This document shows, piece by piece, positions 9,586 to 30,064 of a stretch of DNA of 64,000 nucleotides; the first letter of the stretch is position 1, and each line of letters begins with the position of its first letter. A model generated the notes under the pieces. That model saw only the letters and a list, made by a program, of their open reading frames with translations. It searched no databases and was not told the DNA's origin. The translations under genes and the position numbers were made by a program. The stretch comes from Comamonadaceae bacterium. GTDB lineage: Bacteria; Pseudomonadota; Gammaproteobacteria; Burkholderiales; Burkholderiaceae_C. The stretch is from the NCBI GenBank assembly GCA_027485285.1, contig JAIXRH010000123.1:47632-111631 (forward strand), given 5' to 3'.

Positions 9586-12003
9586 TCAGCGTAGCTTACC
9601 CAAAGCGCGCAGCACCTTTTGTGGTGTGATGGGCTGAGAGAACACATGTGCGTCAAAGGGTGACATCGCATCGTTGATGGCATTCATCACAGCTGCAGGC
9701 GCGCCGGCGGTGCCCGCTTCACCGGCGCCCTTGGCGCCTAGTTTGGATGTGGCAGTTGGGGTCTGAACGTGTGCCACCTCAATGTCGGGCATCTCTGCAG
9801 ACATGGGCACCAAATAATCGGCCATGCTGGCATTGACCATCAAACCGCTGTCATCGTAAAGACATTCCTCGAGCAATGCGCCGCCTATGCCTTGCACGAT
9901 CGCACCTCGCATTTGTTCATCAACCAGCATCGGGTTGAGTACGCGACCGCAGTCCTCGACGGCCCAGTGCTTGAGCAATTTGACAAAGCCTGTTTCCACG
10001 TCCACTTCAACGTAAGACGCCTGCACGCCGTTTGTAAAGATGAAAGGGAAGTCTCGCTGTGCGTAATGCCGCGTGACCATGAGCTCTGGCGTGAAGTCCG
10101 CCGGGAGGGTGTCGGATCGAAAATAGGCGACACGCCCCAACTCAGCCAAGGGTAGGAGATCTTGCCCACTGCTCGCGTCAACAACCCTGTCGCGTCGCAC
10201 CGCCAAAGTATTGCTGTCGCGCTTGAGGATGACGGCAGCCACTTTGAGAATGTTGTCTCTCAGCGCTTGCCCTGCTAGCAACACAGCTTCGCCTCCAATA
10301 CCGGCTCCGCGGGAGGCCCAAGTGCCGCCGCCATAAGGCGTGGCGTCCGTGTCGCCCGTGACCACGCGGACTTTGCTGATATCGACCCCGACGGCATCGG
10401 CAGCGATCTGCTGATAAATGCCCTCAGTGCCTTGGCCTTGCTCGCCCACACCAATCAGAACCGTGATGTGACCCTCTGGATCTAGGCGAATCGTCGCGCC
10501 GTCTTGGGAGGCAATGCGGGCACCACCGACGCCGTAAAAAGCAGCGCTCGGGTTGGTGAGCTCAATGACTGTGGCAAAGCCAATGCCTCTGAATACGCCT
10601 TGCTTGCGCAATGCGGCCTGTTCTACCCGAAGCGCGTCATAGTTCATGAGCTCACGAAGCTTTTGAAGGCAGGCCTCATGGGAAAGAATTTCCAACTTGA
10701 TGCCCGAGATACCAGCAGTTGGATAGGCATTGTCGGGAATCACATTGAGTTCACGAATCCGTAAGGGGTCCATGCCGATTTTTTGTGCTGCTAAGTCCAC
10801 CAGAGCTTCGGTCACCGCGCAGGCGATAGGGTGCCCCACGCCGCGGTACTGGCAGGTGGGCGTTTTGTTTTGGAACACGACATCGAGCTTGGCTCGGTAA
10901 TGCTTGTGCTTGTATGGCCCTCCCACCAGATTGACCACTTGGTTGCCTTCAATGGCGCTGGTGCGCGGGAACATGGAGTAGGGCCCAATGCCTGTGAGAT
11001 CCTGCATGTCAAAGCCCAAAATTTCACCGTCGCGGTTCACCGCAATGCGAGCTTGGATGAAGTGGTGCCTTGCATGTATATCGCTGGTAAAGCTTTCCAG
11101 TCGATCGGCCACAAATTTGACCGGACGGCCCAAGATGATGGAAAGCGCCACAGTCGCAAAATCGTCTGGATAAGCATGAACTTTGATGCCAAAGGAGCCG
11201 CCGACATCCTTGCACACGACGCGAATGGCGCTGGCGGGCAAATTGAATTGGCGACCGTAAAGGTCTTGCATCATGTGCGGGGCTTGGCACGAGTGGTACA
11301 CCGTCAAGCGCTGTTCCGCTGGACTCCAATGTGCGATTTGCGCGCGGGGTTCTAGCGTCACACCCGTGTGGCGTCCAAACTCAAAATCAATTGCCGCGAC
11401 GACGTCAGCCTTGGCAAAAGTCTCATCGACTTGACCCACATCGAGAGAGCGTGTGAAACACAGGTTATCGCCAAGCTCTGGATGGATCAAGGGCGTGGAA
11501 GGCTCCAAGGCGCGTTGCATGTCAGTGGCAGCTGGCAACTCTTCCCAGTCGACCTCCACATAAGCCAAAGCGTCCTCTGCTTGGGCTCGCGATTCTGCAA
11601 CCACCGCCACCACGGGCTCACCCTGCCAGCAGGCGCGTTCTAGCGCGAGAGGGTATTGCGGTGCCGATTTCATGCCGGCCAAGTGGCTCAGGGTTGCTAC
11701 CCAAGGTTGGCAGACCTTGGCCAAGTCTTGTCCGTCCGCCACCAGCAGCACGCCGGGCATGGCACGCGCAAACTCTGAGTTCACAGACTTGATCCGCATG
11801 TGCGCAACTGGGCTGCGCCAGAACACCACATGCCCCATGCGCGGTAACTCAATGTCGTCCAGGTACTGGCCCAAACCTTGGGTCAGCCGTTCAATGCCAC
11901 CTCGGGGAACTGAGGTACCGATGTAGCGCTGGTCATCACTGACAGGGGATAGCGGTGACGTGTGGTCCACGCTGGGTTCAAGGTTGACGGTATCGCGCTT
12001 CAT
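9586..12003 (-). CDS. Xanthine dehydrogenase/CoxL-family molybdopterin-binding large subunit
   Basis: 805 aa; GGSFGIK, GEQGQGTEGIYQQIAADAVG, KGAGEAGTAGAPAAVMNAI (GAGE). Confidence 0.92.
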   Translation of the reverse strand: MKRDTVNLEPSVDHTSPLSPVSDDQRYIGTSVPRGGIERLTQGLGQYLDDIELPRMGHVVFWRSPVAHMRIKSVNSEFARAMPGVLLVADGQDLAKVCQPWVATLSHLAGMKSAPQYPLALERACWQGEPVVAVVAESRAQAEDALAYVEVDWEELPAATDMQRALEPSTPLIHPELGDNLCFTRSLDVGQVDETFAKADVVAAIDFEFGRHTGVTLEPRAQIAHWSPAEQRLTVYHSCQAPHMMQDLYGRQFNLPASAIRVVCKDVGGSFGIKVHAYPDDFATVALSIILGRPVKFVADRLESFTSDIHARHHFIQARIAVNRDGEILGFDMQDLTGIGPYSMFPRTSAIEGNQVVNLVGGPYKHKHYRAKLDVVFQNKTPTCQYRGVGHPIACAVTEALVDLAAQKIGMDPLRIRELNVIPDNAYPTAGISGIKLEILSHEACLQKLRELMNYDALRVEQAALRKQGVFRGIGFATVIELTNPSAAFYGVGGARIASQDGATIRLDPEGHITVLIGVGEQGQGTEGIYQQIAADAVGVDISKVRVVTGDTDATPYGGGTWASRGAGIGGEAVLLAGQALRDNILKVAAVILKRDSNTLAVRRDRVVDASSGQDLLPLAELGRVAYFRSDTLPADFTPELMVTRHYAQRDFPFIFTNGVQASYVEVDVETGFVKLLKHWAVEDCGRVLNPMLVDEQMRGAIVQGIGGALLEECLYDDSGLMVNASMADYLVPMSAEMPDIEVAHVQTPTATSKLGAKGAGEAGTAGAPAAVMNAINDAMSPFDAHVFSQPITPQKVLRALGKLR

Positions 12004-12485
12004 GCCAGTGCCTCCTGACGTTGCTGCAGGACGTCACAGATGGCGTCTACGATGGCTTGGTAGCCGGTACAGCGACAGTAATTGCCTGAAATCCAATCAC
12101 GCACCTCGCCGCGCGTGGCGTTTGGAAGGGTCTCCAGCAGCTCTTTGGCTGCCATCAGCATGCCCGATGTGCAAAAGCCACATTGCAAAGCGTTGCGACG
12201 GACAAAAGCTTCTTGCAGATCGCGGATGATGCCCGTCGCGCTCAGGCCCTCAATGGTCTGCACCTGCCCACCGTCGGCTTGGACGGCCAAGGTCAGGCAG
12301 CCACGCACAATCTTGCCGTCGAGTTCAACCGTGCAGGCGCCGCAAACGCCGTGTTCGCAGCCCAAGTGGCTGCCTTTGAGTCCCAGGTCATCGCGCAAGA
12401 AATCCACCAGATGGGTACGTGGCTGCACACTGCATTGGTGCGCTTTGCCGTTGACAGTGACTTTGATGGGGTAGAGATCAGCCAT
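12000..12485 (-). CDS. 2Fe-2S subunit of Mo-hydroxylase (CoxS-like)
   Basis: CEHGVCGACTVELDGK, CGFCTSGM, YCRCTGY cluster motifs; 4-nt overlap with large subunit. Confidence 0.93.
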   Translation of the reverse strand: MADLYPIKVTVNGKAHQCSVQPRTHLVDFLRDDLGLKGSHLGCEHGVCGACTVELDGKIVRGCLTLAVQADGGQVQTIEGLSATGIIRDLQEAFVRRNALQCGFCTSGMLMAAKELLETLPNATRGEVRDWISGNYCRCTGYQAIVDAICDVLQQRQEALA

Positions 12486-12503
12486 GGTTATTTCCTTGTC
12501 GGC

Positions 12504-13361
12504 TTAGACGTTAACGGAATGGGGCAGCATGCGCTGCAACAGCACACCGATCAGGTGACGTTTGGTGTCTGGCGTGTTGGTGAGGTCGGGCAGCGGATCG
12601 ACTTCCTCACGCAGGCATGCCACGGCATCCGCCACCAGGTTGGCGTCCAGCGCGCGGCCTTCAAGCAGCGCCTCGGTTTTGCGTGCACGCAGTGGGGTAG
12701 CGTCCAAACCCAGAAGCGCAATGCGTAAGCCGCGCAGCGCAGCGCCTTCACGGCGTGCCGTAGCGGCCATGCCAACGATGGCGTAATCGCCGTGGCGGCG
12801 CGCCAATTCGCTGAAGCCAAACCAATGGTCTTTTTGCGCCAACGGGAGTTCGCAAGCGATCAGCAGCTCGTCGGGCTGCAGGGCAGTGCTGTAGAGGCCC
12901 GTGAAAAAATCGTCAGACGCAATTCGGCGTTCGCCTTGCGGCCCTTGTGCGATCACGGTACCACCCAAAGCCAGCAAGCAGGTGGGCCATTCAGCGGCCG
13001 GGTCGGCATAGGCAATGGAGCCACCCCAAGTTCCGCTGTTGCGAATGGCACGGTGTGCAATGTGGGGCGCTGCCGCCTTCAAAAGAGGGGCGTGTTGCGC
13101 CACCAATTCGCTGAACTCAATCTCGGTATGCGTGACCAAGGCACCTATGCGCAGTGCATCGCCGTGCAAGCGGATCCCTTTCAGTGACTCAATACCCGTG
13201 ATATCAATCACCCACTGGGGCTCAGACAAGCGCATGTTGAGGGTGGCCATGAGCGTTTGGCCGCCGGCGAGCAGGCGGGCGTCATCGCCATGCGCTTGCA
13301 GCAAATCAATGACCTGACTGATTGCTTTGGGCTTGATGTAGTCAAAAGAAGCTGCTTTCAT
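12504..13361 (-). CDS. FAD-binding subunit of Mo-hydroxylase (CoxM-like)
   Basis: AGGQTLMATLNMRLSEPQWVIDI and TWGGSIAYADPAAEWP FAD-binding motifs. Confidence 0.9.
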   Translation of the reverse strand: MKAASFDYIKPKAISQVIDLLQAHGDDARLLAGGQTLMATLNMRLSEPQWVIDITGIESLKGIRLHGDALRIGALVTHTEIEFSELVAQHAPLLKAAAPHIAHRAIRNSGTWGGSIAYADPAAEWPTCLLALGGTVIAQGPQGERRIASDDFFTGLYSTALQPDELLIACELPLAQKDHWFGFSELARRHGDYAIVGMAATARREGAALRGLRIALLGLDATPLRARKTEALLEGRALDANLVADAVACLREEVDPLPDLTNTPDTKRHLIGVLLQRMLPHSVNV

Positions 13362-13389: not shown

Positions 13390-14025
13390 TCAGGAGCCGA
13401 GCAAGGAGCCTAGCCAAACGCCGAAACCTGTAGATAAGGCACCTAAAACAAACCACAGAACCCGTGTGGCCTCAATGCTAGACGCCGATGGGCTTGCAGC
13501 AGCGGGGGCAGGAGAGTTGGTGGCGACTGAAGCTGCTTCGCTCTTGGGGCCCGCTTGGCTCGCATGGGCCAAATCTGGGGCTGCACCGTCCGCCATCTGC
13601 TCATTGAAAGCCTTGAAAAACTGGTCGGCCATTTGTTTGGCCGCGGCGTCGATCATGCGGCCACCCACCAGACCCAGCTTTCCGCCAATTGCGGCCTGAG
13701 CGGTGTAGCGCAAACGCGTGCCGTCTGATTCGTCGGTCAGTTCAACATTGGAATGGCCCTTCGCCATGCCAGCTGCTCCCCCTGAGCCTTGGAAGCGCAA
13801 AACGCAGCCTTCATTGGGACGAATGTCTTCCATACGCACGTGACCCACAAAGCGAGCACGCACGGGACCAACTTTGACGGCTACACGTGCTGTCCGCTCG
13901 GTAGGGCTGGTGGCCTCCATGCCCTCACAACCTGGGATGCAACGCGTCAAGACAGCGGGGTCGTTAAGTCCAGCCCACACCTTGTCTCGTGGCGCATTGA
14001 TCAGAATGTCTCCACTTAATTCCAT
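13390..14025 (-). CDS. CoxG-like SRPBCC protein with C-terminal TM anchor
   Basis: MELSGDILINAPRDKVWAGLNDPAVLTRCIPGCEGME; C-terminal hydrophobic helix. Confidence 0.88.
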   Translation of the reverse strand: MELSGDILINAPRDKVWAGLNDPAVLTRCIPGCEGMEATSPTERTARVAVKVGPVRARFVGHVRMEDIRPNEGCVLRFQGSGGAAGMAKGHSNVELTDESDGTRLRYTAQAAIGGKLGLVGGRMIDAAAKQMADQFFKAFNEQMADGAAPDLAHASQAGPKSEAASVATNSPAPAAASPSASSIEATRVLWFVLGALSTGFGVWLGSLLGS

Positions 14026-14186: not shown

Positions 14187-15521
14187 TTAAGCGTCTACTT
14201 GATACGACTTGAGACGGTCTAGCGTTTTATGAAATCTCAACAAAAGCTCATGTACTTCGGCCTCAGAAATGATCAGTGGAGGGCAAAAGGCAATGGTGTC
14301 GCCAATGGCACGCACAATCAATCCTTCTGACTCTGCAATGCGCGCACATTCTCGACCATACTTTGGCAAAAGTTCGACCCCTGCTAACAGTCCGATCCCT
14401 CGAACCTCTTTGACCAAAGGGTGATTCTGAAGTTGTTTCAGCCCGTTCAATAGGCTTGGACCCACCTGTTGCACATGAGCGACGATATTGAGTTCTTCAT
14501 AGATTTTGAGGGTCTCTAAGGCGACGGCTGACGCTACCGGATGGCCTGAATAAGTCATGGTCAATCCAAACAGACCTAGCTCACCACTTTGGCGCTCAAT
14601 GGCCTCATAAACACGGGGGCCGATCATGAGTGCCGAAATGGGAATGTAGGCACTTGATAAGGCTTTTGCGCAGATCAAAAGATCCGGTTGAAGCTTCATG
14701 GTGGTCGAGCCAAACATCTCCCCGGTTCGCCCAAATGCTGTGACGACCTCGTCGCACACCAACAAGATGTCGTGTTTTTTCAAAAGTAATTGCAGTTGCT
14801 CGTAATAACGAGCGGGCGGCACAACAATGCCCCCTGCGGCCATCACGGGCTCAACAAAAAATGCCGCGATGGTGTTGGCACCTTCCGTATCGATGAGGCG
14901 TTCAATATCGGCAATCAGCCGATCGCTGAAGGTTTCTTCGGATTCACCTTGTGTCGCATTGCGCGTGAAGTGCGGCGTTGTCACATGCAAAAAACCTGGC
15001 AACGGTAGATTGAATTTGTCATGTGCGTAGCTAGCCCCTGTCAGGCTTGCTGCAGCAATCGTGTTGCCGTGATAAGCCAGATGGTGAGAGATAAATTTCT
15101 TTTTTGCAGGCTGCCCCAATGCGTTCCAAAAATACCAACTGAGACGCGCCGCACAGTCAATAGCCTCAGACCCAGTGCTCGCAAACCAAATTCTGGACAT
15201 GGGCGCTGGCGCCATAGATAAAAGCTTTTCGGCCAAAGCGATCACTGGCGGGTGACTCTTATGGTTCGTCAGTGGGTAATAAGCGAGCGTCATCATTTGT
15301 TGATGAGCCACATCGGCAAGACGTTGATTGCCATACCCCAGAGCGATGCACCACAAGCCAGACATGGCCTCGATGTATTCGCGCCCATGAATATCTCGAA
15401 CCCATACGCCTTTGCCAGACTCAATCACGCTGGCGCCGCGCTTGGCATGCAACGATAGATCCGTCAGACCATGCACAACGGCCTGGGCATCTCTGGCTTG
15501 AAGAGAGTCGATGTCCGACAT
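14187..15521 (-). CDS. Class III (omega) aminotransferase
   Basis: 444 aa; GREYIEAMSGLWCIALGYGN, LLVCDEVVTAFGRTGEMFG, LLICAKALSSAYIP (PLP Lys). Confidence 0.92.
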   Translation of the reverse strand: MSDIDSLQARDAQAVVHGLTDLSLHAKRGASVIESGKGVWVRDIHGREYIEAMSGLWCIALGYGNQRLADVAHQQMMTLAYYPLTNHKSHPPVIALAEKLLSMAPAPMSRIWFASTGSEAIDCAARLSWYFWNALGQPAKKKFISHHLAYHGNTIAAASLTGASYAHDKFNLPLPGFLHVTTPHFTRNATQGESEETFSDRLIADIERLIDTEGANTIAAFFVEPVMAAGGIVVPPARYYEQLQLLLKKHDILLVCDEVVTAFGRTGEMFGSTTMKLQPDLLICAKALSSAYIPISALMIGPRVYEAIERQSGELGLFGLTMTYSGHPVASAVALETLKIYEELNIVAHVQQVGPSLLNGLKQLQNHPLVKEVRGIGLLAGVELLPKYGRECARIAESEGLIVRAIGDTIAFCPPLIISEAEVHELLLRFHKTLDRLKSYQVDA

Positions 15522-15582: not shown

Positions 15583-16491
15583 TTAGCTTTTGGAGCGTGT
15601 GATGCCGTTGCGGTGTTCCATCACTGCACAGACCGAAGCGGTGTCTTGCATTTCAAACCCTTGCTCAATCGCTTCGTCATGGATCTTGGCGGCCAGATGA
15701 AACAAGGGCGTATCTGCTGCAAGCGTGTCGATGTACCCACTGATGATCGAAATGTCTTTGTGCATCAGGCGGTGGGTGGCCGAGAGCCCAGTTTGGTAAT
15801 CCCCAGCCACCATCATTGGCCCCCTCACTTCTAGGATGCGTGAGCTGCCGGCACCGCCAAAGAGCGCCTTGTAGGCTGACTCTGGCGTGATGCCAGCCTT
15901 CTGCGCAAAGGCAAACGCTTCAGCGGTGGACACATTGTGGATGGTCACCAGCAGGTTGGCGACGTACTTCATCTTTGAGCCGTTGCCAAAAGCCCCCAGA
16001 TCATGGGTGAGGCGACCAATGCCTGCGAAGACCGGCATCATCCTCTCCACGCCCTGTGCGTCACCGCTGGCAAACACAATCAGGTCGCCCTTGGCCGCTT
16101 GCGCACCGGTTCCACTGACGGGGGAGTCCAGCAAGGTGCCGCCCGCCGCTTGCAGGGTTTGCATGGCCTGCACTTTGTCTTTCATGGCCAGCGTGCAGGT
16201 GTCAGCCACCACAATTTCCCGAAGTCGCGGACCCAGCCCCGCCAACTCGGTCATCACTTGATGCAAAGCCTGTGGACTTGGTAATGACGTGATGATTTCT
16301 GTGCACAGTGATGCCACGTCTACCGCTGATTTTCCGGGCTGCATGCCCTCAGCCTGAAGCTCTTGAACTCGCGCGGTGTCCAGGTCATAGCCGACCACCT
16401 GAAAGCCATTTTTTAATAAATTACGGACATAGGCTGAGCCCATGATTCCCAGACCGATGACGCCGACTGTTTTCAATTGAAGCTCCTTCAC
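15583..16491 (-). CDS. 3-hydroxyisobutyrate dehydrogenase-family NAD(P)-dependent oxidoreductase
   Basis: GVIGLGIMGSAYVRNLL, DSPVSGTGAQAAKGDL, GNGSKMKYVANLL. Confidence 0.9.
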   Translation of the reverse strand: MKELQLKTVGVIGLGIMGSAYVRNLLKNGFQVVGYDLDTARVQELQAEGMQPGKSAVDVASLCTEIITSLPSPQALHQVMTELAGLGPRLREIVVADTCTLAMKDKVQAMQTLQAAGGTLLDSPVSGTGAQAAKGDLIVFASGDAQGVERMMPVFAGIGRLTHDLGAFGNGSKMKYVANLLVTIHNVSTAEAFAFAQKAGITPESAYKALFGGAGSSRILEVRGPMMVAGDYQTGLSATHRLMHKDISIISGYIDTLAADTPLFHLAAKIHDEAIEQGFEMQDTASVCAVMEHRNGITRSKS

Positions 16492-16532: not shown

Positions 16533-18845
16533 TCAGACCTTGATCTCGATGTCGCACAGCAACGGGTCGCCCGCCAGCGCCACTTCGTTTTCAATGAGAC
16601 GGCCACAGCCTGGGCAGAAAAACTGTCGGAACACGGGCTCGTCATCAATGTAGCGGCGATAGTCGCCCACCAAGGGGTTCGATGCGGTGATCGGTGACGT
16701 CTCCATGGCGCAGCCCAACTTGTAGTTTTGCTGCAGCGGGCCGAGGTCGGTGGCGCAGCCAAGGCAGCACCAACGCTTGCGATCTTTCGCTGGCGCCTTA
16801 GGGTCCAGTCGAACGCCCAGATTGGCGGTGGCCTCGCGCAGCAATTTGCCATCCAGTTGTCGCAGTGCAGGGGCTTTCGCGCTTCGCGGATGCTTCTTGC
16901 GCGCCTGCTGCCGCTTGCTGCGCAGTTGCTCGGTTGCTGGCGCATCAAGGCTGCCATCTGCCGCGATGACGACGCCGTAGATCTGGTGCGCAGCCTCGGC
17001 AGAGACGGCCATGTTTTCGGTCACGTCGAACGCCACTTGGGCGGGGTCTCGTTCGAGCGGATCGCCAAAACCGCCGCCGCCTGTCCAAGTCACCGAATAC
17101 ACATCCTTGGGGTTTTGGGTGAAGTTCTGCTGGCGCAGTCCCAGTGTTTCTTCGCGACCGCCAACTTCGTTGATGTCACCCGGCAAGGTGCTGCGCTTGA
17201 ACATTTGATCAATGTCGCTGTCGCGGTGGAACTTATAAATGTTGACCGACGCGGGGTAGCCGCCCATCATGCCGGTGGATGTGGGAATCGCATTGCCCGA
17301 CGACAACGTGTCATGGGTGATGGCCGTTGTGCCGTGCGGAATGAAACACGATTCGGCCGACATGCCCCCACGGAACTGTCCCGCGCCACCCGAGTCAACC
17401 ACTTCTTTGCGGTAGAGGAACAGCAGGGGGAAGGTTTGCTCGGTGTGCTCGATGTTGGGCAGTTTGCAAATCGGGGTGCGCGACTGGCCGCCGGTAGAAA
17501 TGCCATCTGCGCCGGCAAAAGCCCCAATGGCGCCGCCAATCGGGTCAACCAATATGTAGCCATAGGGGTCACCCCATTGGTCGGTCCCACGAAAGATCGT
17601 CGCAGGCCACTGGCTGGTGCCACCAATACACATGATGTCATGGCGCATTTTTTCATCGCCAAAGATCATTTTGCTCAGCACGTTGTAGGTGGGGTAGAGT
17701 GAAATCTCCATCGCTTGCACGGGTGCGGTGGACACCGATGCCGGAAAGTTTGCGCTGTTCATGGTGCCTGGCGTCGCATCGTAAGTGACATGTCGCAAGG
17801 CCCCGCCGATGGCAAAGTACTGATCCCAGCACAACAGCTGGTTGAGCGCCACCATGATCGAGCCTCGCCAACCTGAGAAGGTGGCGTTCATGGCCCCATC
17901 TTGTTCGGCGGTTCCTTCATTGCGGAAAATCAGTTGGTCACCCTTTTTTTCCAGGCTCAGCATGACCCGGTGCGAGCGGCGGTCGCCAGGCCGACAGCAC
18001 TCCACATAGGTTCGATCGCGCCAGATGCCATCAGGCAGACGTTTCATTTTTTCCAAAAATGCGTGCTCGCCATCGTTGAGAATTTTGCGCATCACCGCTT
18101 TCACAACGTCAGCGCCGTAGCGTTTGAGGAGCGCCTCTACGCGCGCTTTGGCGGTGTTGTTGCCCGCCAGCTGTGCGCGGAAATCCAGCGCCACGGCTTC
18201 AGGCTTGCGTGAGGCACGCAGATACAGCTCTTCGATGTCACGGCGAATTTCCCCACCCTCGATGATCTTGACAGGGGGCAGCAAGATGCCTTCTTCGTAG
18301 GCACTTTCCGCCGCCAAACAAAAGCTGGAGGGAGTGATGCCACCAATGTCGTACTGGTGCAGACAGTTGGTGACCCAGCAAAACAGCTCGCCCTCGTGGA
18401 AGACTGGGCAAATCAGCATCACGTCTTGCTGGTGTGCCGCACCCACCCAAGGATCGTTGGCCAAAAACATGTCGCCGTCGCGGATACCCGGGTTGTCCGA
18501 TCGGTTCTCCAAGATCCACTTCACCTGCGTGTCAGTGACGCCGGACATGTACTGCATGTAGGGGCCGAAAAAGACAAACTCACCGTCTTCGGTCAGGATG
18601 GACGGGTTGAGGTCGAGCGCATACATGGCCACCGGTGAACCCGACAAACGTTGGATGGTGGCGCCATGCTCCTCATTGATGTTCCACAGGCTGTGGCGCA
18701 CCACCTCGTAGGTGATAGGGTCAACCTTGTTGCTGGCCTTGCGGTGCAGCTTGAGCTTGGGCGAGATGGTGAGTTTTTCGGGCGGAATGTAGCCGCCCTT
18801 GATGGCATCAAAGCCGCGACGTTGGGTGCTGGTGCTCTGGGTCAT
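16533..18845 (-). CDS. Hydantoinase B/oxoprolinase (acetone carboxylase alpha-like) with fused Cys-rich gamma-like C-terminal domain
   Basis: 770 aa HyuB core (LANDPWVGAAHQQDVM, GGAGQFRGGMSAE) plus C-terminal CCLGC...FCPGCGRLIENEVAL. Confidence 0.87.
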   Translation of the reverse strand: MTQSTSTQRRGFDAIKGGYIPPEKLTISPKLKLHRKASNKVDPITYEVVRHSLWNINEEHGATIQRLSGSPVAMYALDLNPSILTEDGEFVFFGPYMQYMSGVTDTQVKWILENRSDNPGIRDGDMFLANDPWVGAAHQQDVMLICPVFHEGELFCWVTNCLHQYDIGGITPSSFCLAAESAYEEGILLPPVKIIEGGEIRRDIEELYLRASRKPEAVALDFRAQLAGNNTAKARVEALLKRYGADVVKAVMRKILNDGEHAFLEKMKRLPDGIWRDRTYVECCRPGDRRSHRVMLSLEKKGDQLIFRNEGTAEQDGAMNATFSGWRGSIMVALNQLLCWDQYFAIGGALRHVTYDATPGTMNSANFPASVSTAPVQAMEISLYPTYNVLSKMIFGDEKMRHDIMCIGGTSQWPATIFRGTDQWGDPYGYILVDPIGGAIGAFAGADGISTGGQSRTPICKLPNIEHTEQTFPLLFLYRKEVVDSGGAGQFRGGMSAESCFIPHGTTAITHDTLSSGNAIPTSTGMMGGYPASVNIYKFHRDSDIDQMFKRSTLPGDINEVGGREETLGLRQQNFTQNPKDVYSVTWTGGGGFGDPLERDPAQVAFDVTENMAVSAEAAHQIYGVVIAADGSLDAPATEQLRSKRQQARKKHPRSAKAPALRQLDGKLLREATANLGVRLDPKAPAKDRKRWCCLGCATDLGPLQQNYKLGCAMETSPITASNPLVGDYRRYIDDEPVFRQFFCPGCGRLIENEVALAGDPLLCDIEIKV

Positions 18846-18848
18846 GGT

Positions 18849-20972
18849 TCATTTCCCGAAGTGAAGTTCAAAATTACCCAGTGCATCGACCTGCAGCACT
18901 TGCTGCGGTTGCACCACGATGTTGGTGTCGGTGGTTTCCACCACCGCTGGTCCTTTGACCTCTTGGCCAAAGCTGATTTGGGCACCGTCATAAATCGGTG
19001 TCTTGACAGACTTGCCCAGGTCGCTCCAGTACACCGTTCGGTGACCGGTGCGTGCCGCCGATGCATCGGCGGGCTTGCGCTTGACTTTTCGGCGTAACTT
19101 GAGCGATTGGGTCGCGCTGCGAGCTCGCACGCGGAAGGTCACCATCTCCAAGCGGGCATCGCCATAAGACGAGCCCTTGCCGTAAATGGTTTCGTAGCGT
19201 GTGTAGAACGCCTGCTCCAGTTGTGCCAGCAGGGCCAAGGTGAGGCGGGGCGAGCTGCGGTCGACCGCGGTGGGCAATTCGACCTCCACCTCGTTCATCT
19301 GGCCGCGGTGGCGCATGTCGATCGAGAAACGCAGCTGTACCGCCGCGGGCTTGATACCGTCGCGTTTCATCTGGTCCATGGCCCGCTTGCTCAGACCGGT
19401 CAGCACGCGGTTCACTCGGGCCAGCTCGAAGGTGGAGCTCTGGATTTCTACCTGCTCATGCACGTGCAGGATGTCAGCCGTGGCCGCGCCAAAAGCACAC
19501 CAGGTCGACGCGATGCGGTTCAAGGGAATCAGCACTTTTTGAACGCCCAATTCGCGGGCAAACACACCCGCGTGAACGGGCCCAGCGCCACCAAAAGCAA
19601 ACACGGTGAAGTCGCGTGGGTCCAGGCCTTTTTCCACTGTGGTTTTGCGGATGATGTCGGCCATCTTGAACTCAGCGATCTTGGCAATACCCGCCGCCGT
19701 CTGCATCAGGCTCAGTCCGATCTCGCGGGCGACCTTTTCGACGGCTTGTACCGACTTTTCGCGGTCTAGCTTGATGCGTCCACCCAAGAAATTATCTGGA
19801 TCGATATAGCCCAGCACCACATCGGCATCGGTCACGGTAGGCACGGTGTTGCCCTTGCCATAACAGGCGGGGCCTGGGTCGGCGCCCGCCGATTCAGGAC
19901 CCACCCGCAAGGTGTGCGTCACCGCATCGACCCGCGCTAGCGAACCGCCGCCCGAGCCGATGGCCTGGATGTCGACCTTGGGAATGAAATATTCATACTG
20001 CGCCACATTCGCCACGGAGTTGTAAGCGGGTCTGCCTCCGGCGATCACGCCCACGTCAAAGCTGGTGCCCCCCATGTCGGTGGTGATGATGTCGGGACAG
20101 CCAATCAGTTGGCCCAAGTACTGCGAAGCAGTCACGCCTGAAACTGGGCCTGAGTCGAGCGTGAGCAGGGGTGCTTCAATCGCACGGTCTACCGAAATTG
20201 AGCCGCCGCCGCACGAGGTGATTTGCAAAGGATGGCGGTAGCCGGCCTTTTTGAGCTGTTCGACCAATTGGCGCAAATAATTGGAGGTGACAGGGCCGAT
20301 ATAGGCATTCAATGCGGCGGCTGTCAACCGCTCGTACTCACCCCACTTGGGTGCCAGCTCCACCGAGCAGCTGATGAAGGCATGCGGTGCGCGCTTTTGA
20401 ATGATCTGCTTGATACGTAGCTCGTGTTCTGGGTGCTTGAACGACCACAGCAAGCATACGGCGAAGGACTCCACGCCCAAAGCGAGCAACTCGTCCACGC
20501 AGCGTTCGACCTCTTTTTCGTTCAACTCAACCACCACATCGCCCATGCAGTCAACACGCTCGGAAACCCCTCGGATGTAACGCTTGGGCACGATGGGTAT
20601 GGGTTTTTGACTTTCTGGGAAATGCACCAATTGGTTCAGATGGCGAGAGTCAATCCCCCGCGAACCCCGCATGATGTGAATGATGTCCTCATGGCCCTTC
20701 GTCGTGATCAGTCCTACTCGGGCCCCACGACGCTGGATCAAGGCGTTGGTGCCCACCGTGGTACCGTGGGTCAACAGCCGTATGCGGCTGCAAAACTCGG
20801 CAAAGGGCAGACCTAGGCGCTCGGCCACGGCTGCCATCGAATTCAGCATGCCCTGGGCAAAATGGGGGGGTGTTGAGGGTGATTTTGCCGCCACCAACTC
20901 ACCGGCGTCAGTGATCACGACGCAATCGGTGAAGGTACCGCCAATGTCTACCCCGACTTGGAAACTCTCCAT
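18849..20972 (-). CDS. Hydantoinase A/oxoprolinase (acetone carboxylase beta-like)
   Basis: VDIGGTFTDCVVI, HGTTVGTNALIQRRGARVGLITTKG, TTDMGGTSFDVGVI. Confidence 0.92.
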   Translation of the reverse strand: MESFQVGVDIGGTFTDCVVITDAGELVAAKSPSTPPHFAQGMLNSMAAVAERLGLPFAEFCSRIRLLTHGTTVGTNALIQRRGARVGLITTKGHEDIIHIMRGSRGIDSRHLNQLVHFPESQKPIPIVPKRYIRGVSERVDCMGDVVVELNEKEVERCVDELLALGVESFAVCLLWSFKHPEHELRIKQIIQKRAPHAFISCSVELAPKWGEYERLTAAALNAYIGPVTSNYLRQLVEQLKKAGYRHPLQITSCGGGSISVDRAIEAPLLTLDSGPVSGVTASQYLGQLIGCPDIITTDMGGTSFDVGVIAGGRPAYNSVANVAQYEYFIPKVDIQAIGSGGGSLARVDAVTHTLRVGPESAGADPGPACYGKGNTVPTVTDADVVLGYIDPDNFLGGRIKLDREKSVQAVEKVAREIGLSLMQTAAGIAKIAEFKMADIIRKTTVEKGLDPRDFTVFAFGGAGPVHAGVFARELGVQKVLIPLNRIASTWCAFGAATADILHVHEQVEIQSSTFELARVNRVLTGLSKRAMDQMKRDGIKPAAVQLRFSIDMRHRGQMNEVEVELPTAVDRSSPRLTLALLAQLEQAFYTRYETIYGKGSSYGDARLEMVTFRVRARSATQSLKLRRKVKRKPADASAARTGHRTVYWSDLGKSVKTPIYDGAQISFGQEVKGPAVVETTDTNIVVQPQQVLQVDALGNFELHFGK

Positions 20973-21152: not shown

Positions 21153-22076
21153 TCAGGGCAGGCAGCGGGCGCCGGGCCATTGGCCAGATCGGACTTGAGT
21201 GCCACAGATTTCAGCAAGTTTGTCGCGCAGTTTGTGCCCGGCCAACGACAGGCTTTGATCCCGTTGCGTCACCAGTGTCCAAGTGATAGACAAATTTTCA
21301 ATCGGTGCGATGGTCACCCTACCTTGCCGATGGGCCAGGGCCACGGCGCTGAAGGGAAGCACGGTGAACCCCTGTCCTTCCACGACCAATTCCAGCAGCA
21401 TGCGCGCCGAGTTGGTTTCTAAGGCCGGCAACAACTTGCGCTGTAATTGCGCCAGTGACTGGTCGATGATCCGGCGCATCGCATTGGGTCGGCTGGTCAA
21501 GATCATGCGACGCTCAAGCAAGCACTCGGCGCTGACCGGTTTGTCCGCACTGAGGCGGCCCTTGGCTGGCCCCACCAGTAACAGTGGTTCTTGCAAAACG
21601 GGTCGGCTGATCAACATGTCCAAGGGCTCGGCATCGGAGACTAAAGCCGTATCGAGTCGGCCGGTCAGCACACCTTCGTGAAGCCAGGCGCTCAGGCCTT
21701 CTTGCACATGAACTCTGACCTCGGGGTAGCTGCGGCAATAGGCGTCTACCAGGGGCACACTCACAAGCTCAAAAAGTGACGGGGGCAAACCCAGTCGCAG
21801 CTCGCCTTGAGGCCGGTGCGCATACATACCAATGTCATCCTGCAACTGACGCATTTGCTGCAACACCGTACGCGAGCGTTCCAGCAGCGCTATTCCAGCA
21901 GGTGTCAATTGCACGCCCTTGTCAGAACGCAGAAAAAGCAAAACGCCAAGCTCTTTTTCAAGCGCTTGCATTTGCCTTGTCAACAAGGGTTGGGAGACGT
22001 GCAGCACGCTGGCTGCACGGGTCATGCTGCCCAGCTCCGCGATGTGCTGAAACAGCGTCAGTTGCTTGAGATTCAA
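21153..22076 (-). CDS. LysR family transcriptional regulator
   Basis: MNLKQLTLFQHIAELGSMTRAASVLHVSQPLLTRQMQALEKELG LysR HTH. Confidence 0.93.
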   Translation of the reverse strand: MNLKQLTLFQHIAELGSMTRAASVLHVSQPLLTRQMQALEKELGVLLFLRSDKGVQLTPAGIALLERSRTVLQQMRQLQDDIGMYAHRPQGELRLGLPPSLFELVSVPLVDAYCRSYPEVRVHVQEGLSAWLHEGVLTGRLDTALVSDAEPLDMLISRPVLQEPLLLVGPAKGRLSADKPVSAECLLERRMILTSRPNAMRRIIDQSLAQLQRKLLPALETNSARMLLELVVEGQGFTVLPFSAVALAHRQGRVTIAPIENLSITWTLVTQRDQSLSLAGHKLRDKLAEICGTQVRSGQWPGARCLP

Positions 22077-22190: not shown

Positions 22191-22925
22191 TTAATGGCTG
22201 CCGCCTAAGTAGAAGCTCTTGACAAGATCGTTTTCTTTCAAAGCAGCGACATCGCTGTGAAACACGATCTCTCCATGAACAATGATGTAGCCGTAATCAG
22301 CCACGCGCATCGCTTGGTTGAAATTTTGTTCGGCCATCAATACTGTCAACTGATAGCGGTCTTTGAGCTCTTTGAGTTTGGTGATGGTTTGAGACACCAA
22401 CAGAGGCGACAAACCTACCGAAGGCTCATCCACCAACAACAAACGCGGCGAGGACATCAGAGCGCGCGCAATGGCCAACATTTGTTGTTGCCCACCAGAC
22501 ATCGAGCCCGCTAACTGCTTGCGCCGCTCAGCCAAAACTGGAAATGCTTCAAAACTGAAGGCCAAGTTGTCGGCGATCTGTGAGCGAGCCTGTTCGCGAT
22601 AAGCGCCTAAAAGCAGGTTCTCCTCCACTGTCAGCTTGGGGAACAAACGACGACCCTCAGGCACCAAGGCAACGCCTAAGTTGACAATTTCTTGGGTAGA
22701 AAGTTGGGTCAGATCATGTGTTTGACCATCGATCTCTAAATGGATAGAGCCACGCGAAGGACGAACCATGCCCATCACACACTTCATGAGCGTGCTTTTG
22801 CCATTGCCATTGGTACCGAGCAACGCCACGGTTTGTCCTTGGCTGAGATTCAAGCTCACGCTGTGAAGCGCGCGCACTGCACCATAGCTGGCAGCAATAT
22901 CTTTGATGTCTAATTTAATCGCCAA
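22191..22925 (-). CDS. livF: Branched-chain amino acid-type ABC transporter ATPase (LivF)
   Basis: GTNGNGKST Walker A, SGGQQQMLAIARALM, LLLVDEPSVGLSPLLV. Confidence 0.9.
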   Translation of the reverse strand: MAIKLDIKDIAASYGAVRALHSVSLNLSQGQTVALLGTNGNGKSTLMKCVMGMVRPSRGSIHLEIDGQTHDLTQLSTQEIVNLGVALVPEGRRLFPKLTVEENLLLGAYREQARSQIADNLAFSFEAFPVLAERRKQLAGSMSGGQQQMLAIARALMSSPRLLLVDEPSVGLSPLLVSQTITKLKELKDRYQLTVLMAEQNFNQAMRVADYGYIIVHGEIVFHSDVAALKENDLVKSFYLGGSH

Positions 22926-23631
22926 GGTAAGCCCTTTGAACTTGTGGATTAGCTACAACGGATTTAGGGTCACCATCACAGATGATTTGCCCTGCGTCCA
23001 AACACACGAGACGTTCTGAGAAGCGCATCACGGCCTGCATGATGTGCTCAATCATGATGATGGTGATGCCTTGCTTGTTCAGCTTGATCAAGATGTCCAA
23101 CACGTCATCGCATTCGCTGCCTGACAGACCTGCCATGGCTTCGTCAGAAATCAGCAGTTGCGGTTTGGCGGCCATGGCACGTGCCAACTCCATCTTTCGC
23201 AACTCGACTTGCGACAGCGACGAGGAACCGGCGTGCGCTTTGTCTGCCAAACCCATTTCAGTCAAAATCTCAAGCGCCTGATCACGTGCTTTGGCACCAC
23301 TGACGCCTCCTACATAGGCCAAGGGCACCATGAGATTTTCTAAAACGGTCATGCTGTGAAATGGACGTGGGATCTGAAAACTACGCGCTATCCCCAGACG
23401 TGTACGCGCATAGGCAGGCAAGCTGTGAATGGCTTTGCCGTTGAACACAATATCGCCCAAGTCATTTTGCAAGGCACCAGAGATGCAACTGATCAAGGTG
23501 GTTTTTCCAGAACCATTGGGGCCAATCAGGCCTAGGCGCTCACCTTTGCGAATGGACAAGTTCACCCCGCTGAGCGCGGTGAAGCCACCAAAGTTTTTGC
23601 CTACGCCCTTTACTTCGAGGATGTTTTCCAT
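22915..23631 (-). CDS. livG: Branched-chain amino acid-type ABC transporter ATPase (LivG)
   Basis: GPNGSGKTTL Walker A; family length and position; signature region LSQVELRKMELARAM. Confidence 0.9.
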   Translation of the reverse strand: MENILEVKGVGKNFGGFTALSGVNLSIRKGERLGLIGPNGSGKTTLISCISGALQNDLGDIVFNGKAIHSLPAYARTRLGIARSFQIPRPFHSMTVLENLMVPLAYVGGVSGAKARDQALEILTEMGLADKAHAGSSSLSQVELRKMELARAMAAKPQLLISDEAMAGLSGSECDDVLDILIKLNKQGITIIMIEHIMQAVMRFSERLVCLDAGQIICDGDPKSVVANPQVQRAYLGD

Positions 23632-24548
23632 TTTTTAATCAATCCAATCACGCCATCAGGGGCGGCAACCACGAACACAACAAGCAAGACACCGACCACC
23701 AACACGTTGAGCTCACTCGAAATAGTGACCGTCACGATTTGCTGCAAGGTTCCCAAAATCAAAGCGCCAATCAAGGGCCCCGACCAATGAGAAGTACCCC
23801 CAATGATCGGCATGGCAAGCGCAATCACTGCGTAGTGCAAATTGAATGTGGATGCAGGTTCGATATAGCTCAAATACATGGGCATCGGGGCACCTGCGAC
23901 GCCCAACAGCGCACCAGAAATGGCACATGCAATCAGTTTGAGTTTCAACGTCGGCACACCTGAACAGTCAGCGGCTTCTTCAGAATCACGCACCGCGCGC
24001 AAACCTTGACCGATGTGAGAGTTTTGTACATAACGTGCAATGGAAACGGCCAACACTGCCATCAAGGTCATGACGACAAACAACATGCGCGTGTAGGAGT
24101 CAAACAACCAAACCTCGCCGGGTCGCGTGAGCTGTAAACCAGTGGCGCCTCCCAAGAAGCGTGTGTTCATCACAACCGCTTCAAGGATGAAGACCACCGC
24201 CACAGTGGCGATAGAGAAGAAAATACCTCGCAGACGCAGTGTCAGCATACCCACTGCCAATCCGAGCAAGCCAGCCATGACCGCCCCTGCCAAAATCTGC
24301 ACCATGATGGGCGCGTTGAACAGCAGGTGAACAGCGAGTGCACTGTAAGCACCCACCCCCACAAAGCCAGGAACGCCGAAGTTCACGTAGCCGGCGTAAC
24401 CCCCCAAGATATTCCATGCTGTGGCCAAAACAATGGCTTGAAGAACCACAAAGCCAGCAAAAAAAACATACTCATTGACACCCGAGAGTGCCAACGCAGT
24501 GGCCGCCACAATTGCCAAAGCCGAAACAAACCAGTATTTCATGTTCAC
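23610..24548 (-). CDS. livM: Branched-chain amino acid-type ABC permease (LivM)
   Basis: Polytopic; NILGGYAGYVNFGVPGFVGVGAYSALAV, LRAVRDSEEAADCSGV. Confidence 0.9.
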   Translation of the reverse strand: MNMKYWFVSALAIVAATALALSGVNEYVFFAGFVVLQAIVLATAWNILGGYAGYVNFGVPGFVGVGAYSALAVHLLFNAPIMVQILAGAVMAGLLGLAVGMLTLRLRGIFFSIATVAVVFILEAVVMNTRFLGGATGLQLTRPGEVWLFDSYTRMLFVVMTLMAVLAVSIARYVQNSHIGQGLRAVRDSEEAADCSGVPTLKLKLIACAISGALLGVAGAPMPMYLSYIEPASTFNLHYAVIALAMPIIGGTSHWSGPLIGALILGTLQQIVTVTISSELNVLVVGVLLVVFVVAAPDGVIGLIKKWKTSSK

Positions 24549-25424
24549 TTACCTGCCAAAAAGGCCTTGTGGCCGAATCCCGAGCATCAATAGCAACAAA
24601 CCGAATGCGACGGCAGTTGCCCAAGATGCACCAAACATTGTGAGCACAATTGACTCTGCCACACCCAAAACCAAACCAGCAACCAAGGTGCCGCTCATGC
24701 TGCCCATACCCGCCAGCACCACCACACAAAACGTTCGACCAATATAAATGCGGTCCATCGTGGGATCGACGGGGCTGACAATAATCAACATCGCACCGGC
24801 CAGCGCATTCACCGAAGTTGCAATGCCAAATGCAAGTTGCTTGATCTTGACGGGGTCAGCGCCCATCAAGCGCAGTGCACCTTCGTCTTGACCGACGGCT
24901 TTGATGGCGCGGCCAACAAAGGTGCGAGAGAAAAAGTTTGTCAATACCACGGTCAATAACAAAGCCACCGCAGCAGCCACTACCAAACGGTAAGGAATAC
25001 GCAGCTCACCGACGCGCAAACTTGCACCAATGTAGTCGGCCTCCGCAGAACGCTGGTCAACACCGAAAGCGAGCACCAGCAAAACTTCCACAATGAAAGC
25101 AATGCCAAAGAAAAAGGCCAGCCCGTTGACACCTGACGCGCTGCCACGACTCTCAAAGGTTTCGTAGTAAAAGCGATACAGCAACATGCCAACCAGAAAA
25201 AATACCGGCATGAGCAGCAATCCTGAAATCAAGGGATCAAGACCCCAGCCGCCCAGTAAATAAGCCCCATATGAGCCAACTATCAGCAACGCTGGGTGCG
25301 CCACATGAGGCACATCTAGCAAACCAAAAGCCACTGATAACCCTAAGCTGACAGCGGCGTAAAAACACCCCAGCAGCAGGCCAAATATGACTGCTTCATA
25401 CAGAAGCTCGAATGAGAACATCAT
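24549..25424 (-). CDS. livH: Branched-chain amino acid-type ABC permease (LivH)
   Basis: Polytopic; FGLLLGCFYAAVSLGLSVAFG, GRAIKAVGQDEGALRLMG. Confidence 0.9.
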   Translation of the reverse strand: MMFSFELLYEAVIFGLLLGCFYAAVSLGLSVAFGLLDVPHVAHPALLIVGSYGAYLLGGWGLDPLISGLLLMPVFFLVGMLLYRFYYETFESRGSASGVNGLAFFFGIAFIVEVLLVLAFGVDQRSAEADYIGASLRVGELRIPYRLVVAAAVALLLTVVLTNFFSRTFVGRAIKAVGQDEGALRLMGADPVKIKQLAFGIATSVNALAGAMLIIVSPVDPTMDRIYIGRTFCVVVLAGMGSMSGTLVAGLVLGVAESIVLTMFGASWATAVAFGLLLLMLGIRPQGLFGR

Positions 25425-25443
25425 TGTTTATCAACCAAAACGA

Positions 25444-25472
25444 GTCGAGGGTTGTGGTGCACAACCCTCGAC
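25444..25472 (-). promoter_or_regulatory. Intercistronic hairpin between substrate-binding protein and livH
   Basis: GTCGAGGGTTGTG-GTG-CACAACCCTCGAC: perfect 13-bp stem, no U-tract. Confidence 0.7.
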
Positions 25473-25496
25473 ATGGGCCAAACCAAGCTGAGCAAG

Positions 25497-26753
25497 TTAC
25501 TTTGCTTCGGCTGCTTTTAGATAAGGCGAAATAAAGTCGCCTGTTTTGTCTGCAACTGGTGAAAGAATCACTTGTCTGGCTGGACTGCGGAACTGCTCTT
25601 GGTCCTTGTCTTTCAGACCACGGAACTGAGCTGTGACCAAACGCACGTTGGCACGTTCACCGTTTTCGTCAAAACGAATTGGCCCCACGATGGTTTTCAT
25701 TTCATTCTTACGCAAGTAATCCGCCAGTTTGCGGTCGTCAATGCTCTTCGTGGCATTGATGGCCTGCTCCAGCATTTCACCAATCGCGTAGTTGAAAGGG
25801 GACAGGTAGAAGCCGAGTTCGTCTGTGTTTTCAGCCTTCGCGCGGACGGTGTAGCGCTTCAAGAAAGCTTCCACACCTGGCAATGGCATACCAGGCACAT
25901 AAGAGTGGAAGTTGGTGATGCCGTTGAGCTTGCTACCCAAGTTCACAGCGATGGGCGTGAATTGCAAGCCCACCATGGCGCCACCCACGATCTTCACCTG
26001 AGAACCCAAACCGATCTCGCTGATCGAGTTGACGATGGCCGCTGATGCGCCAGGGTAAGAAGCCACGAAGACGATCTCAGCATTCGAGGCACGAATGGCG
26101 CGGATCAAAGATGAGAAGTCTTTGGTGGTAGGGGGGTAGTTTTGATCGTAAACAATGTTCAAGCCCAATGACTTGAAATAAGGGCGAGCACCATCAGCCA
26201 AGTTTTGTGCAAACTCGCCGTCTTCTGCCAAGATCGCAACTGTTTTGGCACCTGTGGAGCGTCCAGCCTCCATGAAGCCCTTGGCCCAACCTTCAGCCGT
26301 ATTCCAAGGCGCATTGTTGAACCACATGTCGTGTTTGGTTTTCGCATTGACTTGGAATGAGAAGTTACCCATCAACAGTTTTTGTCTTTGCTTGACCAGC
26401 GGCATGATTGGCGCGGTCGGGCCAGTGGCGTAAGGCGCAATCAACAAATCAACTTTGTCCACGTCGAGCAGTTTGGTGTAGATGCCGGGTGTGTTTGCAG
26501 GGTTGCTTTGGTCGTCGTAATAAATGAATTCAACTTTACGGCCAAGCAATCCACCTTTGGCGTTGACATCTTCAACCCACATGCGAATGGCCAAAAGCGC
26601 AGCTTTGCCGCCACCTCCCAAGCCACCCGTTTGGGGCATGCTCATACCGATTTTGATAGGGTCAGCGGCAATGGCATTTCCACTTGCGGCCAGACCTCCA
26701 GTCAACGCAACTGCCGATGCAGTGCCCAACAGTTTGCGACGAATTGAATCCAT
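25497..26753 (-). CDS. ABC transporter substrate-binding protein (LivJ/K-like)
   Basis: Start chosen at MDSIRRKLLGTASAVALTGGLAASGNAIAADPIKIGMSMPQTG with AGGAGA upstream; type I PBP sequence. Confidence 0.9.
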   Translation of the reverse strand: MDSIRRKLLGTASAVALTGGLAASGNAIAADPIKIGMSMPQTGGLGGGGKAALLAIRMWVEDVNAKGGLLGRKVEFIYYDDQSNPANTPGIYTKLLDVDKVDLLIAPYATGPTAPIMPLVKQRQKLLMGNFSFQVNAKTKHDMWFNNAPWNTAEGWAKGFMEAGRSTGAKTVAILAEDGEFAQNLADGARPYFKSLGLNIVYDQNYPPTTKDFSSLIRAIRASNAEIVFVASYPGASAAIVNSISEIGLGSQVKIVGGAMVGLQFTPIAVNLGSKLNGITNFHSYVPGMPLPGVEAFLKRYTVRAKAENTDELGFYLSPFNYAIGEMLEQAINATKSIDDRKLADYLRKNEMKTIVGPIRFDENGERANVRLVTAQFRGLKDKDQEQFRSPARQVILSPVADKTGDFISPYLKAAEAK

Positions 26754-26965
26754 GGTTGTCTCCTTAAGATTTTTTTGATCGATCATTTTGCTAACGCAAA
26801 CCGAGTATTCCGTAGAATATTTTTTAGTTTGTAACGTGTGTGACATTCCATGAAAAATATAGGTCTAATTTCATTCGTCATGCACTCGCGGATCATGGTT
26901 TGTCGGCATCAAAACGTCTATGCATGGAAACCCTTAAGCGTCGTTTGCTTAGCAGAATGAGCGCT

Positions 26966-29196: not shown

Positions 29197-30054
29197 TCAT
29201 GACTCGTATTGCTGTCCTCGGGTTAGCAATTCTGGCGTCCCAATGACAGCGTTCAAGCCATCAAAGTCAAGCATCTGGTGTTGCCAAGGTAAGGTGGTTT
29301 GGTGCTGGTGCAGACTTGCATAGTAGCGTTGGAGAGTACTTGCAACAGCACGCGTAGTCCCCCCTGGAAAAATCACAATCTTGTAGCCGCGATGTCCTAA
29401 GGCATCAGCACCTTGCACTGGCGTTTTTCCGCCCTCTACCATGTTGGCCAACATGGGCACGCGGTGCGCAAACTGTTGACAAGCGATGTCCATGTGTTCG
29501 GGCGTGCGAACGGCCTCAATGAACAAAGCATCCACCCCGCACGCCAAGTAACGCTCAGCACGGTGCAGTGCTGCTTCAAAGCCCTCGACAGCCACCGCAT
29601 CGGTGCGCGCCAAGATCAAGGTGTTGGATGAGTGTCGTGCATCCAGCGCTGCGCGCAATTTGCCCTCCATCTCCGCAACCGGCACCACCCCCTTGCCATC
29701 TAAATGGCCACAGCGTTTGGGAAAGGTCTGGTCCTCCAGCTGAATCATCGCGGCCCCCGCACGCTCAAAGTCACGCACTGTGCGTTGCGTGTTCAAGGCA
29801 TTGCCAAAGCCGGTGTCCGCATCCACGATGACCGGTACCTGCACGCGATCGGTGATGCGCGCCAAGGTTGTCGCCACCTCGGTGGCTGTGGTCAAACCAA
29901 TGTCCGAACGCCCCAATGCTGTGTAAGCAATCGACGCACCTGACAAATACAGCGCCTCAAAACCTGCCTGTTCGGCGATCAATGCGCTGAAGGCATCGTA
30001 CACCCCGGGTGCCAGCAACACCTCGGGTTGGTTCAAACGGTCTTTCAAATTCAT
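29197..30054 (-). CDS. Isocitrate lyase/PEP mutase superfamily, lyase-type (2-methylisocitrate / 2,3-dimethylmalate lyase-like)
   Basis: APGVYDAFSALIAEQAGFEALYLSG, VDADTGFGN, FPKRCGHLDGK (catalytic-Cys loop KRCGH). Confidence 0.88.
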   Translation of the reverse strand: MNLKDRLNQPEVLLAPGVYDAFSALIAEQAGFEALYLSGASIAYTALGRSDIGLTTATEVATTLARITDRVQVPVIVDADTGFGNALNTQRTVRDFERAGAAMIQLEDQTFPKRCGHLDGKGVVPVAEMEGKLRAALDARHSSNTLILARTDAVAVEGFEAALHRAERYLACGVDALFIEAVRTPEHMDIACQQFAHRVPMLANMVEGGKTPVQGADALGHRGYKIVIFPGGTTRAVASTLQRYYASLHQHQTTLPWQHQMLDFDGLNAVIGTPELLTRGQQYES

Positions 30055-30064
30055 GGGGTGTCCC

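Follow-up and report, generated by a model that had tools for sequence, protein, structure and literature searches.

Identification of a gamma-type domain in the long HyuB protein

The window, the whole 64,000-nucleotide stretch of DNA analysed here, encodes two HyuB proteins of different lengths, 770 aa (ORF 16533..18845, minus strand) and 572 aa (ORF 34175..35893, minus strand), as the initial annotation had recorded. That annotation noted an extra C-terminus with a Cys-rich motif in the longer protein, likened it to the gamma subunit of acetone carboxylase, and read the product as a carboxylase or ring-opening hydrolase. The locus raises the questions of whether the tail is a gamma domain and which chemistry the enzyme would perform.

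The Cys-rich motif is present at the C-terminus. Pfam analysis of the 770-aa protein identified a Hydantoinase_B domain (PF02538; E value, 1.4e-102) at residues 42–596 (17058..18722, minus strand), assigned as the metal-site subunit by its sequence and fold match to chain 5l9w_A. An Acetone_carb_G domain (PF08882; E value, 2.7e-10) was found at residues 687–769 with 40.9 bits against a cut-off of 21, which bears out the likeness to the gamma subunit. The gamma domain proper occupies 16539..16787 on the minus strand, so the range first given for it, 16536-16800, was essentially right. Residues 597–686 (16788..17057, minus strand), delimited by the domain borders, form a C-terminal arm and linker with pLDDT mostly about 90 or higher. 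The gene at 16533..18845 thus combines a beta-type metal subunit with a gamma-type zinc subunit, whereas the 572-aa HyuB matched Hydantoinase_B only, without Acetone_carb_G, in the Pfam search.

The NCBIfam model for ApcB, the acetophenone carboxylase small subunit, also matched at residues 688–770 (E value, 8e-10), below its equivalog cut-off. Among solved chains, the nearest to the tail by sequence was 5l9w_C, the small zinc subunit of acetophenone carboxylase (Apc; E value, 1.9e-11), followed by acetone carboxylase gamma chains with weak E values. A PF08882 search of the whole genome (98% complete) returned the fused gene's own domain as its single match and found no separate gamma gene, so the earlier remark that none lies nearby holds genome-wide. 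PF02538 genes number three in the genome. Located 3 bp upstream of the fused gene, hyuA (18849..20972, minus strand) encodes a 707-aa ASKHA-type ATP-binding subunit with PF05378, PF01968, and PF19278. A HyuA-like ATP-binding subunit (PF01968) and a HyuB-like metal subunit (PF02538) are thus encoded together, as expected of the hydantoinase/ketone carboxylase superfamily.

Metal site, zinc cysteines, and predicted structure

Alignment to 5l9w_A matched Asp78, His138, Asp141, and His163 of the fused protein (predicted ligands; codon span 18357..18614, minus strand) with Asp65, His123, Asp126, and His148, which bind the metal in Apc; the Asp-His-Asp-His site is intact. Likewise, Cys694, Cys697, Cys744, and Cys747 (codon span 16605..16766, minus strand) align with Cys22, Cys25, Cys75, and Cys78 of the Apc gamma subunit, and all four zinc cysteines are intact; the Apc positions were taken from the structural study (PMC5214803). 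All eight residues were invariant in an alignment of 36 relatives, and both sites were exactly kept in 90 of the 99 proteins examined.

The AlphaFold model of the fused chain averaged a pLDDT of 75.4, and most of the gamma region scored above 85. In Foldseek searches, the HyuB part matched 5l9w_A (E value, 8.0e-36), acetone carboxylase alpha, N-methylhydantoinase, and CapB, and the gamma chains 5m45_C and 5l9w_C ranked after these matches when the fused chain was the query. The gamma domain modelled alone reached a pLDDT of 91.2 and gave E values of 0.001 or lower only for gamma chains of acetone and acetophenone carboxylases. Judged by its sequence, metal ligands, and predicted fold, the tail is a true gamma domain, and an unrelated tail is excluded on the same three counts.

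Departures from these sites were observed in some relatives. In Rhodococcus fused proteins (L120, 8998-11307; L140), the gamma-like C-terminus stays in the chain with most or all of the zinc cysteines gone; R. opacus retains one cysteine, and R. koreensis has apparently undergone the same loss with the domain retained. In the protein from a Mycobacterium branderi plasmid (L119, 8917-11247), the fourth metal position was aligned as Gln, not His. Natural proteins with and without the gamma zinc cysteines make the role of the domain testable.

Distribution of the fusion

PF08882 was present in 19 of 300 genomes of the same order. About a dozen of the matches in that order, including that of the window, lie in open frames of at least 770 aa, as a fusion would give, and tblastn identified most of these order-level matches as fused HyuB proteins. 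Across a phylum-wide spread of 399 genomes, eight others carried a PF08882 match, none of them fused, in open frames of 124–269 aa. A scan of GTDB yielded 120 stretches with confirmed relatives, from which 80 loci (62–82% identical) were kept, mostly from beta-, gamma-, and alphaproteobacterial metagenome bins. Nearly all encode a single chain with gamma, usually adjoining a HyuA gene, and this conserved partner was seen at 72 of the 80 loci. The HyuB-gamma fusion is a real, conserved domain fusion.

The rarity implied by the initial annotation was not borne out. Public genomes and metagenome bins already contain the fused form in abundance under a generic name, and a published description of it was not found among open-licence papers. 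Entries named 'hydantoinase B/oxoprolinase family protein' could possibly be re-examined as carboxylases. Among 40 relatives, the full fused protein was missing from the 24 congeners searched and turned up solely in a single, less closely related genome of the order, which indicates patchy presence; another genome of the order carries a divergent fused protein of about 30% identity (L031). Plasmid records contained both fused and split forms in haloarchaea, and further fused forms in M. branderi and Rhodococcus.

Several loci deserve separate mention. The fused gene lacks an adjoining hyuA of its type in L105, L067, and L104, and the gene preceding it in L105 is dihydrolipoamide-dehydrogenase-like. 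One fused gene is degraded to fragments (L037, 9996-10926), and another is interrupted by a broken frame (L028, 9835-11966). The neighbours of the M. branderi plasmid gene (L119) are cytochrome P450 genes and a member of the 2,4'-dihydroxyacetophenone dioxygenase family. The fused environmental gene cluster is also found on contigs titled 'MAG: Klebsiella pneumoniae' (L055, L074, L081, and L095), and these bins look mislabelled.

Phylogenetic position of the HyuA/HyuB-gamma pair

In a HyuB tree of 42 rows, a branch with 100/99 support parted 29 gamma-bearing proteins (20 fused and 9 split, including 5l9w_A of Apc and the acetone carboxylases, Acx) from 13 gamma-less proteins, among them CapB, N-methylhydantoinase, and the window's second HyuB; 5-oxoprolinase was left out. 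On this tree, the presence of gamma changes once, and the fused or split state changes three times. The HyuA tree reproduced the gamma division with 99/95 support, bar one row (L096_none), whose motif is of the HyuA1 type and which clusters among the HyuA partners of the fused proteins. This row was wrongly labelled gamma-less, so the number of gamma changes in the HyuA tree, two with the original label, should be one.

The window HyuA (18849-20972) was placed on the carboxylase side of its tree. In both trees, the window pair sits outside the group of Apc plus Acx, which are nested in a separate subgroup. According to these phylogenies, the pair belongs by descent to the carboxylase lineage and not to the ring-opening hydrolase lineage; the earlier 'carboxylase or ring-opening hydrolase' is still correct, with the phylogeny tilting toward the carboxylase side. 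The fusion marks an uncharacterised branch on that side of the family.

Since gamma, fused or split, divides the sampled HyuB and HyuA proteins cleanly in both trees, it could serve as a simple marker distinguishing carboxylase-lineage from hydrolase-lineage HyuAB pairs if a wider sample agrees. The Apc structural paper reported that carboxylases could not be separated from hydrolases by a substrate-site consensus sequence (PMC5214803). The R/KERiDsxG carboxylase fingerprint in HyuA was dropped as a diagnostic, a similar motif being present in gamma-less HyuA proteins (second copies in L117 and L123).

A fused ancestor costs three changes on the HyuB tree and a split ancestor five, and the fused ancestor needed fewer changes in 298 of the 300 bootstrap trees, all on a sample guided by similarity to the fused query, rooted with the gamma-less outgroup, and containing long branches. 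A fused ancestral state is the cheaper reading of the tree and is suggestive only. We tentatively propose that the fused proteins might represent a third, widespread branch of biotin-free ATP-dependent carboxylases, in which fusion is ancestral and the separate gamma of Apc and Acx arose by gene fission.

Comparison with characterised enzymes

To our knowledge, Apc and Acx are the only characterised enzymes that bear gamma. ApcD (5l9w_A) of the Aromatoleum aromaticum enzyme (PDB 5l9w) is the best match to the HyuB part in both sequence and fold, and ApcB (5l9w_C) is the top sequence match to the gamma domain, with zinc cysteines and metal ligands conserved. However, identity in the HyuB part is only about 24%, and NCBIfam scores of the window proteins fall far below the Apc equivalog cut-offs. 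Apc has a separate gamma gene and additional alpha-prime (a second HyuA-like) and epsilon subunits, whereas in the window operon, with its one HyuA and fused gamma, neither an alpha-prime nor an epsilon subunit to activate bicarbonate was identified. Assignment as Apc proper was rejected on subunit make-up and tree position.

Acx of Xanthobacter (PDB 5svb/5m45) combines single HyuA-like, HyuB-like, and gamma components, and its gamma fold was matched. It differs in making gamma as a subunit of its own, about 168 aa long, and in having Glu89 at the first metal position, compared with Asp78 in the fused protein. These differences, and a position outside the Acx branch in both trees, led us to reject Acx proper.

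ATP-dependent hydantoinases, CapAB (6yra), N-methylhydantoinase (7hk5), and 5-oxoprolinase share the HyuA/HyuB core, the ATP motifs, and the Asp-His-Asp-His site but have no gamma domain, and the 100/99 branch separates CapB and N-methylhydantoinase from the fused protein. A two-component, gamma-less hydantoinase or caprolactamase with a HyuB of about 570 aa does not describe a 770-aa protein with gamma. The nearest relatives with unfused gamma are uncharacterised haloarchaeal triplets (Natronosalvus, L118; Haloterrigena, L123; Natrinema, L125), 40–45% identical in HyuB; the order hyuA-hyuB-gamma is annotated in L118 and L123. Hpe, the acetovanillone carboxylase, was inapplicable as a model because it is biotin-dependent (PMC9618137).

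Gene content of the operon and of related loci

The fused gene lies in a run of genes in one direction, in the order ABC importer, LysR, hyuA, hyuB-gamma, HIBDH-like, class III aminotransferase, coxG, coxM, coxS, coxL, and alpha/beta hydrolase-like, the last named from sequence only. All are on the minus strand: the branched-chain-amino-acid-type importer (livF, G, M, H, and binding protein) at 22191..26846, the LysR-type regulator upstream of hyuA at 21153..22076, the 3-hydroxyisobutyrate-dehydrogenase-like (HIBDH-like) gene 41 bp downstream of hyuB-gamma at 15583..16491, the aminotransferase (Pfam, NCBIfam) at 14187..15521, the CoxG-like protein (Pfam) at 13390..14025, and the coxM, coxS, and coxL-like molybdenum hydroxylase subunits at 9586..13361.

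Parts of this arrangement recur. Regulators 55–56% identical adjoin two fused loci (L038 and L039), class III aminotransferases follow the fused genes in L093 and L105, and CoxL large subunits 59–67% identical adjoin eight other fused genes. Of the 19 beta-type loci flanked by 8 kb or more of sequence, 5 had Cox genes and 8 a HIBDH-like gene, compared with 0 and 1, respectively, of 37 other fused loci. The beta-type loci L041-L049 carry luciferase-like and FAD monooxygenases, a flavin reductase, a PuuE/polysaccharide-deacetylase-like hydrolase, and an FAA hydrolase.

Neighbour clusters vary among subclades of fused genes. Other subclades adjoin enoyl-CoA hydratase, CoA transferase, CoA ligase, thiolase, or BKACE genes, of which BKACE and thiolase, as well as aminotransferase, were confirmed by Pfam and the rest named from sequence. 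R. opacus shows the row SDR - hyuA - hyuB/gamma - SDR - acyl-CoA ligase, an arrangement that resembles the apc-bal operon (PMC4729919). The haloarchaeal split relatives neighbour an AMP-binding (CoA) ligase, an acyl-CoA dehydrogenase, a thiolase, or an acetoacetate decarboxylase family protein. In L110, L111, L112, and L115, a beta-keto acid cleavage enzyme gene adjoining a LysR gene is divergent from the fused hyuAB.

A second HyuAB cluster lies at 29197-35893 in the window and consists of a PEP mutase/ICL family gene, FAD oxidoreductase, isochorismatase, HyuA, and the gamma-less HyuB; its HyuAB genes are 11 kb from the fused pair. In a Xanthobacteraceae bin (L075), relatives of this set, 50–63% identical, lie about 2 kb from the fused hyuAB. 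As this locus carries both sets close together, the two systems may share one pathway.

Proposed function and alternative explanations

With slightly more confidence than doubt, we consider HyuA/HyuB-gamma to be a ketone carboxylase, ATP-dependent and biotin-free, in which gamma is an integral structural domain. This reading is drawn from the gamma domain, from the division of the trees into gamma-bearing proteins, including Apc and Acx, and gamma-less ones, and from the resemblance of relatives' loci (R. opacus, haloarchaea, and the BKACE loci) to ketone pathways. The carboxylase chemistry of the fused branch would be an extrapolation from Apc and Acx.

By homology with the mechanisms of those enzymes (PMC5214803, PMC5543143), HyuA and HyuB-gamma would form an (alpha, beta-gamma)2 complex in which HyuA phosphorylates an enolisable ketone, as its enol, and bicarbonate with ATP. 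An internal channel would lead the intermediates to the metal held by Asp-His-Asp-His in HyuB, where they would couple into a beta-keto acid. Gamma would act as a structural clamp bracing HyuB beside the HyuA interface and not as a catalytic site, in keeping with its persistence without the zinc cysteines in R. opacus and apparently R. koreensis and with the position of gamma far from the active site in Apc (PMC5214803). Fusion would presumably fix the stoichiometry and spare one assembly step. The operon's gene content suggests that the substrate is a ketone connected with some amine or aldehyde, handled by the aminotransferase, the HIBDH-like dehydrogenase, and the molybdenum hydroxylase. 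Against a carboxylase, no CoA ligase or thiolase adjoins hyuAB in the window operon, and the bicarbonate-activating alpha-prime and epsilon subunits were not identified there.

A serious rival is an ATP-dependent lactam or imide hydrolase that happens to carry gamma. CoxMSL would oxidise an N-heterocycle to a lactam, HyuA/HyuB-gamma would use ATP to open the lactam ring, giving an amino acid, the class III aminotransferase would yield a semialdehyde, and the HIBDH-like enzyme would interconvert semialdehyde and hydroxy acid. The CoxMSL, aminotransferase, and HIBDH-like genes fit this lactam-to-amino-acid route as well as the carboxylase reading, and the rival keeps about a third of our confidence because oxidation of a heterocycle, opening of its ring, transamination, and reduction make a natural reading of the gene set. 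The monooxygenases, flavin reductase, and PuuE-like and FAA hydrolases of L041-L049 are also consistent with it, as are the nearby gamma-less HyuAB and the joint occurrence of both clusters in L075. By NCBIfam score, HyuA is nearest to the caprolactamase CapA (567 bits, vs 437 bits for Apc). On the other hand, the pair falls among the gamma-bearing proteins in both trees, apart from CapAB, N-methylhydantoinase, and the second HyuAB; relatives elsewhere adjoin CoA ligases, thiolases, or BKACE; and the family's characterised hydrolases all lack a gamma subunit (PMC5214803).

It is improbable that gamma is only an assembly or regulatory module in an enzyme that uses ATP for some third type of chemistry, such as the activation of a compound other than a ketone or lactam. 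The retention of a cysteine-poor gamma-like domain in some Rhodococcus proteins, the few fused genes without an adjoining hyuA (L105 and L067), and the heterogeneity of neighbourhoods across the clade would agree with such a role, but the joint retention of metal site and zinc cysteines in 90 of 99 proteins argues for conserved chemistry. Read-through of two adjacent genes, an assembly artefact, or chance likeness of a cysteine-rich tail is scarcely credible and was rejected: although the split arrangement exists in haloarchaea, the frame is uninterrupted in the window and in nearly all of the 80 other loci, the gamma fold is predicted at high confidence, and the Pfam match exceeds its cut-off.
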